Positions 35,738 through 36,131 of a DNA stretch of 61,849 nucleotides are shown here, one piece after another. This DNA is from Raineya orbicola. GTDB taxonomy: Bacteria; Bacteroidota; Bacteroidia; Cytophagales; Thermonemataceae. The stretch spans positions 1 to 61,849 of the forward strand of contig NZ_NKXO01000021.1 in the NCBI RefSeq assembly GCF_002843425.1, written 5' to 3'. The position numbers and the translations under genes were made by a program. The notes beneath the pieces were generated by a model. It had not been told where the DNA came from, did no database searches, and saw only the letters and a list, made by a program, of their open reading frames with translations. Within the stretch, counting starts at the first letter, position 1. Every line of letters starts with the position of its first letter.

Positions 35738-35769
35738 TTGACAAGTTGCATTTTATTTTTTTACCTTTG
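35738..35769 (+). promoter_or_regulatory. Promoter of the metY leader
   Basis: TTG at 35738-35740 and TACCTTTG at 35762-35769, 21 bases apart, fit the Bacteroidota promoter pattern. Transcription would begin near 35776, about 17 bases before the riboswitch P1 helix. Confidence 0.6.
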
Positions 35770-35792
35770 CAACGACTTCACCTCCAAAAAAG

Positions 35793-35908
35793 GTAAAGTT
35801 TATAAAGAACGAAGGGAGAGAACAGGCTCTGTGAACTTCTGGCAACCACTCCCCGCGAGAACGGTGCCAAAACCTGCCTAAAATTTTTTAGGAATTATAA
35901 ACCTTTAC
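35793..35908 (+). ncRNA. SAM-I (S-box) riboswitch aptamer upstream of metY
   Basis: The P1 helix is long: GTAAAG-TTTATAA (35793-35805) pairs with TTATAAACCTTTAC (35895-35908), one bulged C. Inside, GAAG/CTTC closes P2 around the conserved AGAACAGGCTCTGTGAA region, then CTGGCAACCACT and CGGTGCCAAAACCTGCC match the GGCAACC and GGTGCxAA cores of the S-box consensus, and CCTAAA/TTTAGG forms P4. The downstream gene makes homocysteine, a precursor of methionine and SAM, which fits feedback by SAM. There is no separate terminator directly after P1: a small reading frame starts four bases downstream. Confidence 0.88.
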
Positions 35909-35912
35909 GCCA

Positions 35913-36005
35913 ATGAAATCACAAAGAAATCGCAAATCTTTTTACTACACCCTCCAACAAATCCTTTCCAATAATTTTTATTGTTGTTGTTGCTGTTGTT
36001 GTTAG
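35913..36005 (+). CDS. Poly-cysteine leader peptide (30 codons)
   Basis: A complete small frame: ATG 35913-35915, stop TAG 36003-36005. The product begins MKSQRNRKSFYY, continues through a neutral stretch and ends with F-Y followed by seven consecutive cysteines (six TGT and one TGC codon, 35982-36002). It has the layout of an attenuation leader peptide: a basic start, then a run of one amino acid relevant to the downstream gene (sulfur assimilation). It starts four bases after the riboswitch P1 helix and is followed by alternative hairpins. It has not been shown to be translated; the run is also a TTG-type trinucleotide repeat. Confidence 0.6.
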   Translation: MKSQRNRKSFYYTLQQILSNNFYCCCCCCC

Positions 36006-36085
36006 CAGTGAAGTTTCTTTTCATAGCTTCGCTTGCTAAATCCTTTCTAAAAATCTGTTGATTTTTAGTGCAAGTCTTTTTATTT
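35989..36085 (+). promoter_or_regulatory. Predicted cysteine attenuator: alternative hairpins and U-tract
   Basis: Four segments can pair in mutually exclusive ways. Segment 1, GTTGCT (35989-35994, inside the Cys codons), can pair with segment 2, AGCAGT (36004-36009). Segment 2, AGCA-GTGAAG (36004-36013), can pair instead with segment 3, CTTCGC-T-TGCT (36027-36037), ten pairs with one bulge. Segment 3, CTTGC (36032-36036), can pair instead with segment 4, GCAAG (36070-36074), which encloses a perfect nine-pair hairpin (36047-36055 with 36060-36068) and is followed by TCTTTTT. The 3:4 form is the presumed terminator, though its internal loop is lopsided (10 by 1). Confidence 0.45.
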
Positions 36086-36131
36086 GCTCAACTATAGAAT
36101 TTTTGTTCAACTCTAAACCTTTTTTACCGCT

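Follow-up and report, generated by a model that had tools for sequence, protein, structure and literature searches.

A SAM-I riboswitch and a cysteine-ending leader frame precede metY

The window analyzed here comprises positions 1-61,849 of contig NZ_NKXO01000021.1 of Raineya orbicola, a member of the Cytophagales. In this window, a metY gene is preceded by the following features, all on the forward strand and numbered by window position:

35738-35769 (+): promoter-like TTG-N21-TACCTTTG, with TTG at 35738-35740 and TACCTTTG at 35762-35769
35797-35903 (+): SAM-I riboswitch aptamer (RF00162), 75.5 bits against a gathering cut-off of 44.4
35896-35908 (+): 3' strand of P1, consisting of the UAUAAA core and its extension, at -17 to -5 of the leader ATG
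35913-36005 (+): leader frame of 30 codons, peptide MKSQRNRKSFYYTLQQILSNNFYCCCCCCC
35982-36002 (+): seven consecutive Cys codons, directly followed by the stop codon TAG at 36003-36005
36002-36039 (+): hairpin 1, arms 36002-36013 and 36027-36039, with the leader stop in the 5' arm
36047-36068 (+): hairpin 2, which folds as CUAAAAAUC-UGUU-GAUUUUUAG, with no U-run directly 3'
36132-37451 (+): metY, encoding an O-acetylhomoserine aminocarboxypropyltransferase (TIGR01326, 677.6 bits; cut-off 495.1), the putatively regulated gene

By sequence and structure, the RF00162 aptamer upstream of metY is a SAM-I riboswitch and a putative SAM binder. It is the only Rfam riboswitch that the window contains at gathering score, with no second aptamer and hence no tandem riboswitch, and the genome (3.07 Mb in 104 contigs) contains one further SAM-I match, upstream of metH. 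In the core of P1, 35797-35804 are paired to 35896-35903. By inspection of the sequence, the helix can be lengthened, with 35793-35797 opposite 35904-35908 and the C at 35903 bulged out, and a script using the same extended register counted 4 extra pairs; the P1 end at 35908 given by the initial annotation is obtained by extending the core past this bulged C. The 3' strand of P1 overlaps the A-rich initiation region of the leader frame, whose ATG (35913) lies nine bases past the aptamer end. The TTG and TACCTTTG pair is presumably a promoter of the Bacteroidota -33/-7 type, and its position suggests that the RNA would start slightly 5' of the aptamer.

The leader frame is present as it had been described, with 30 codons from the ATG at 35913 and seven terminal Cys codons, among which both TGT and TGC are used. 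The genome of 3.07 Mb contains the string TGYTGYTGYTGYTAR a single time, at this locus, and the same string read backward, used as a control, is absent (0 occurrences). The leader stop is separated from metY by 126 nt. Compared with a locus from the same genus (L043), codons 2-20 of the leader show 7 synonymous and 0 non-synonymous changes, and the end of the leader is altered in length but still Cys-rich; elsewhere, pN/pS of the leader body was 0.55 over 11 independent pairs. Judged from these sequences, the leader frame is under coding selection, with only mild constraint on its body, and is a putative amino-acid leader peptide with a run of codons for a pathway amino acid and a conserved end.

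The pairing of riboswitch and leader recurs in Bacteroidota

Named genomes were scanned for a SAM-I core followed by 12-42 bases, TATAAR, 78-108 bases and four TGY, a pattern that specified neither an ATG nor a reading frame, and at least 119 stretches matched. In all 119 of the matches listed, an ATG was found in frame with the Cys run, 3-15 bases past the P1 end and 5-17 bases past TATAAR, and the stop codon directly followed the last Cys pair in 82 of these 119. The leader peptides of the matches listed are 27-41 aa long and comprise 119 distinct sequences, the DNA strings of their last eight codons comprise 105 distinct ones, and their Cys codons are 480 TGT and 278 TGC. Judged by organism names, all but one of the 119 matches listed (the exception, L112, being named only as a bacterium) are from Bacteroidota, including members of the Cytophagales (Pontibacter, Rufibacter, Fulvivirga, Adhaeribacter and Thermoflexibacter) as well as Mucilaginibacter, Saprospiraceae and Lewinella, Crocinitomicaceae and others; the higher taxa of five names were looked up and the rest are our own presumed assignments. 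For further analyses, 111 of the listed named-set matches for which a gene was found were combined with 26 relatives into a set of 137 Cys-leader loci, two of which (L068 and L110) represent one contig, judging from length and peptide. The element TANNTTTG was found upstream of 96 of these 137 loci (matches listed plus relatives), compared to 8/137 in a coding control.

Within the order, 59 genomes (R. orbicola and 58 relatives) were searched with RF00162, yielding 107 matches in 47 genomes, all of which were read downstream. An ATG frame after P1 with at least 3 Cys in its last ten codons was found at 31 of the 107 loci, representing 25 genomes and 10 families. In a phylum-wide sample of 148 genomes, 90 places were read among the matches listed (30 returned loci and 60 hand-picked to span other orders and families), and a Cys-ending frame was found in 3 of these 90, all from one family. 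Background ATG frames of 15-60 codons had at least 3 Cys in the last 10 codons in 24 of 1886 cases, a count that includes both strands and some loci in the wrong orientation. The pairing of Cys leader and SAM-I riboswitch is more than chance, because all 119 matches listed are in frame, the background is 24/1886 and the changes relative to L043 are synonymous only. The initial annotation had proposed two tests, a Cys-ending frame after SAM-I in relatives and a peptide end that is kept while its bases vary; the former is found at 23 of 40 metY-like loci of the order sample, and the latter agrees with the 119 distinct peptides and 105 distinct last-eight-codon strings among the 119 matches listed.

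Two loci show variations in the Cys-ending frames. At L320 (G011:C1:544308-544322, - strand), a script found no SAM core in the 330 bases upstream of a frame with six terminal Cys codons; this may be a Cys leader whose switch has been lost or is weak. L019 has a second short in-frame Cys run past the leader stop (TGC TGT TGT TGC TGA), perhaps a duplication.

Cys leaders are associated with an AU-type P1 that covers the leader start signal

In switches with a Cys leader, P1 is UUUAUA:UAUAAA or a near variant. Over the order and phylum-wide samples, the Cys frame was found in 32 of 72 switches with such an AU-type P1 versus 2 of 125 with a canonical P1 (Fisher p 1.3e-14); a looser rule, which allowed ATG, GTG or TTG starts and required at least 2 Cys in the last eight codons, gave 42/72 and 3/125, with GTG starts used by one family. 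The same association was seen among the metY-like loci of the order, where the Cys frame was present in 23/36 loci with an AU-type P1 and 0/4 with a canonical one, and canonical P1 helices were found in 84 of the 90 phylum-sample places read among the matches listed. Outward extension of P1 by at least 3 pairs was found in 34/72 AU-type switches, compared to 12/72 with mismatched partners, and in 9/125 canonical switches, compared to 7 with mismatched partners. In the 32 AU-type Cys leaders, the median distance between the end of the extended helix and the ATG is 6 bases.

In Flavobacterium johnsoniae, A residues at -3, -6, -12 and -13 together with little structure are reported to promote initiation, and, in the available text of the same report, initiation in Bacteroidota does not depend on Shine-Dalgarno pairing (PMC6847099). 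The start context of the Cys leaders agrees with these determinants (PMC6847099, available text); among the 137 loci (matches listed plus relatives), A was found at -14 in 100, at -12 in 107, at -6 in 90 and at -3 in 75. The UAUAAA signal lies mostly at -15 to -8 of the leader ATG, and at -17 to -10 in R. orbicola. Position -12, calculated from ATG distances, falls inside the 3' strand of P1 in 110 of the 119 matches listed, consistent with the earlier placing of P1 at the leader start. Since the 3' strand of P1 covers -12, a closed P1 would be expected, from this position, to remove the A-rich start signal.

Cys leaders are found mainly upstream of metY and other sulfur genes

Genes behind the leaders were classified by BLAST against eight representatives, so that the labels used here are approximate. 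In the order sample, Cys-ending frames preceded 23/40 metY-like genes and 1/31 metH-like genes, the latter a weak case (L061), along with 1/4 CysH-like, 2/3 cysteine-desulfurase-like and 2/4 ATP-grasp-like genes, 1/1 NhaC and 1/3 TonB genes, 0/5 MetX genes and 0/16 other genes. As a frame with at least 3 Cys is missing from 17 of the 40 loci with metY-like genes in the order, the generality of the arrangement is limited. The genes with a Cys leader also include a sulfite reductase in the named set (L124, identified by Pfam) and a PAPS reductase. The product of metY forms homocysteine from sulfide, and sulfite and PAPS reductases feed both metY and cysteine synthesis, so that SAM and cysteine would both be sensible inputs for these genes. 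As metH needs SAM status only, the split between metY and metH in the order sample fits a two-input logic.

At four loci (L046, L052, L062 and L085), two of them with a GTG start, a SAM-I riboswitch and Cys-run leader precede a gene for a protein which we take to be ATP-grasp-like, although a Pfam scan of the L052 protein at E 1e-10 gave no match.

The second SAM-I switch of the R. orbicola genome is located before metH on contig C1 (L319 6788-6902, - strand). Between the switch and metH (L319 6266-6705, - strand) are a gene for a HicA-type toxin (PF07927) and a 67-aa frame, which had no Pfam match and is HicB-like by position; a toxin-antitoxin pair may thus be under SAM control. The metH gene itself (L319 2006-6250, - strand; 1414 aa) encodes a DUF559 domain at residues 1071-1174, and the activation domain is matched by two separate stretches of the protein, with the best match at residues 1213-1398 (profile 88-273), such that the DUF559 insert appears to split the activation domain.

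Terminator-like sites and structure in the leader RNA

Between P1 and 30 bases past the leader ATG, a terminator-like site was found in 0 of 137 Cys leaders (matches listed plus relatives), but this stretch is short and shuffled sequences also gave 0.0. Canonical P1-to-gene stretches had terminator-like sites in 20 of 119 cases (1.0 in shuffles), 13 of them in 41 loci from beyond the class and 7 in 78 loci within Bacteroidia, and metH genes in the order had such a site in 3 of 29 canonical stretches. Terminator loss is therefore an indistinct contrast to canonical switches, since this contrast rests mainly on loci beyond the class; judged by predicted sites (7/78), absence of a terminator is already common in SAM-I switches of Bacteroidia.

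Among AU-type Cys leaders, 4/32 had a terminator-like site (0.3 in shuffles), in each case inside the leader frame, and over 143 leader frames 5 such sites were found versus 1.2 in shuffles. At L019 and L022, two loci of one genus, the in-frame hairpin with its U-run looks like a real terminator; such a site would end an untranslated leader, as if serving the same purpose as Rho-type polarity. At L011 and L166, the T-rich tail of the in-frame site is the Cys run itself.

Past the leader stop, the RNA is more strongly folded than expected from shuffles (mean z -1.61 over 127 loci, compared to -0.98 for metH leaders, n=20, and -0.56 for coding sequence). The mean profile of the 127 loci places the 5' arm of a first hairpin 0-15 nt past the stop, its 3' arm at 30-50 and a second hairpin at 55-75; in the folds inspected, L043 and L039 have hairpin 1 at the corresponding position but built from other bases. 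Over 36 loci, mostly from Mucilaginibacter, 9 of 11 hairpin pairs showed two-sided changes (0/500 shuffles scored as high) and 89.3% of cells were paired, but as the alignment used for this count had also supplied the pairs, which were its best-pairing columns, these values are biased upward, and slid versions of the structure (19.8-57.7% of cells paired) represent the better control. RNAalifold found no structure in the 36-row alignment, presumably due to gaps.

From the Cys run to the gene, terminator-like sites were found at 2/137 loci by a strict rule (2.2 in shuffles) and at 23/127 by a loose rule (20 in shuffles), and an attenuator with an intrinsic terminator gained no support, because hairpins followed by a U-run were not in excess over shuffles. 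Occlusion of the metY start was likewise not supported; over 84 loci, the predicted accessibility of the gene start was 0.641 with a ribosome at the leader stop and 0.652 with a ribosome waiting on the Cys run, i.e., the start is equally accessible in both states. Duplexes of the Cys run with the post-stop RNA had a mean z of -0.41 (127 loci), and AGCA or GCAG was found past the stop in 38/133 loci versus 25.5 in shuffles, which is a weak signal only for predicted pairing of Cys codons with this RNA. The proportion C/(C+G) was 0.646 in leader bodies and 0.606 past the stop, compared to 0.535 in canonical Bacteroidia UTRs and 0.556 in genes, and a rho gene is present.

A proposed two-input mechanism and its alternatives

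We consider it probable that the elements upstream of metY act in series as a two-input leader, in which the SAM-I riboswitch gates the start of the poly-Cys leader, the Cys run senses Cys-tRNA, and metY follows an AND rule. The initial annotation had likewise read the riboswitch as acting on the Cys leader, and the Cys frames of relatives, the kept peptide end and the position of P1 on the start signal support this reading. In a first stage, initiation of leader translation would be the expression platform of the riboswitch: binding of SAM would close P1, the UAUAAA start signal would be sequestered and the leader would not be translated. In a second stage, low SAM would allow translation of the leader, and the terminal Cys run would read the level of charged tRNA-Cys, such that with ample cysteine the ribosome would complete the leader and depart, while with scarce cysteine it would wait within the Cys run and not reach hairpin 1. 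Expression of metY would then be on only with a waiting ribosome and hence when SAM and cysteine are both low. That SAM blocks leader initiation and that the Cys run senses Cys-tRNA are the most likely parts of this model, and the AND rule for metY is plausible, as it would follow if both an untranslated and a finished leader leave metY off.

If hairpin 1 alone decided the outcome, the SAM-bound, untranslated state would look like the starved one, and an extra polarity step would be needed. We suggest, tentatively and with somewhat less than even confidence, that ribosome-free leader or post-stop RNA is exposed to a polarity mechanism, either Rho or one like it, whereas a waiting ribosome together with hairpins 1 and 2 would leave little free RNA. 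We lean towards this output, the weakest part of the model, because there is no excess of U-runs, the metY start is equally open in both states, C is favored over G and rho is present. The bias and the hairpins would fit with Rho-type polarity, even though such a bias does not prove Rho loading and hairpins, by lowering the amount of free RNA, are a point against it.

With the same two inputs, the output could be that of a classical attenuator, with folds set by the ribosome that either produce an intrinsic terminator or mask the start of metY. The compensatory changes in hairpins 1 and 2, the Cys run that extends up to the 5' arm of hairpin 1 and its slight complementarity to the post-stop RNA are in line with such an output, and candidates for leader-peptide attenuation have been reported in Flavobacterium psychrophilum (PMC9723704, as far as the available text goes). 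Taking into consideration that terminator-like sites are no more common than in shuffles under either rule and that the gene start is predicted to be alike in both ribosome states, however, we regard it as unlikely. That the frame has no connection to the switch and is instead an ORF arisen by chance or an independent Cys-rich microprotein seems scarcely credible; while the peptide bodies are highly variable (119 distinct among the 119 matches listed), all of these frames are in register with the Cys run at a narrow distance from P1, they are associated with P1 type and gene class, and conservation is found mainly at the end and in the start context, as expected of a ribosome sensor.

In SAM-I switches, SAM acts in the off-sense. 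An increase in a homocysteine-forming enzyme by SAM would contradict this, which renders improbable a logic of opposite sign, not of the AND type, in which the completed leader represses metY and SAM mainly relieves or modifies this repression, even though the Mycobacterium tuberculosis uMetE2 is described as repressing when translated (PMC11260477, available text). Translation of the leader could also be required for translation of metY, by termination-reinitiation or coupling, with the Cys run only tuning the effect; a riboswitch-controlled translated leader is indeed reported for ppe2 of M. tuberculosis (PMC11260477, available text), but the gap of 126 nt between leader stop and metY (median 120.5 nt over the 50 loci with metY-like genes in a set of 80 examined from the matches listed) differs from the stop-start overlap at ppe2, and the regulated genes possess an A-rich start region of their own, making such a relay very improbable. 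The series of a SAM gate and a Cys-tRNA sensor is therefore the reading that we prefer.

Relation to known systems and implications

Like other SAM-I riboswitches, the switches discussed here score above the curated cut-off and precede Met/Cys genes; they differ in having an AU-type P1 whose 3' strand serves as the initiation region of a small frame, and in that the switch appears to act on this leader rather than directly on the gene. In tandem riboswitches, such as SAM-I plus B12, two metabolites govern one gene, whereas here the second of two sensors in series would be a translating ribosome. The tna operon is controlled by Rho-dependent attenuation in which a ribosome waiting near the stop of the tnaC leader excludes Rho, as might occur here; tnaC, however, senses free Trp at the stop codon instead of tRNA charging and has no riboswitch. 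In the mycobacterial Cys-responsive attenuator (CAL), the start region of the downstream gene becomes accessible when a ribosome waits on the leader, a feature that is not seen in the accessibilities predicted here (0.641 vs 0.652, 84 loci); the CAL is also leaderless, with an mRNA that starts at the small frame, while the frame here is preceded by a promoter-like site and an aptamer of 107 nt.

The statement in the initial annotation that poly-Cys attenuation is known from mycobacteria agrees with the poly-Cys leaders of Actinobacteria, which are short frames with a Cys run near the stop, located before cysteine genes (PMC1262725, Seliverstov 2005, available text). These have no terminator hairpin according to the available text, in which Rho was weakly proposed in 2005 (PMC1262725), and in Mycobacterium smegmatis they are described as leaderless (available texts of PMC9031893 and PMC13236596). 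The Actinobacteria leaders are described without a riboswitch, whereas here a SAM switch would control initiation, in Bacteroidota and mostly before metY. A uORF attenuator with conserved tandem Cys codons, uORFC-8-2, precedes cysS in Rhodobacterales, but it has two Cys codons and an intrinsic terminator with a U-run and, in the available text, no riboswitch (PMC8632094). Riboswitches that govern initiation upstream of the real gene start are reported for B12/ppe2 of M. tuberculosis and for SAM-II/metA of Sinorhizobium meliloti; as far as the available text goes, these have one input and no run of codons for an amino acid, and are linked to the gene by stop-start overlap or act at a distance (PMC11260477, PMC9373788). 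No report of a SAM-I riboswitch coupled to a poly-Cys leader was found in the accessible text of the open-licence literature, in agreement with the initial annotation, which knew of none in Bacteroidota; this is no proof of absence. As far as we have seen, poly-Cys leaders and riboswitch-controlled uORFs are each known, and their serial combination is widespread and apparently undescribed.

We think it fairly likely that this combination is a device of the Bacteroidia, shared by several orders, in which a subclass of SAM-I riboswitches with an AU-type P1 gates a poly-Cys leader in place of the gene itself and sulfur-assimilation genes read SAM and Cys-tRNA serially. If this is true, a riboswitch would act on a leader peptide that itself senses a second metabolite, and two-input control would be obtained from RNA and ribosome alone. 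The arrangement further suggests how a riboswitch may be used without a Shine-Dalgarno sequence, with the P1 strand of the aptamer doubling as an A-rich start signal. Sulfur genes would be split into those that respond to both signals, such as metY and the genes of sulfate reduction, and those that respond to SAM only, such as metH, a division that is testable in a large group of bacteria.
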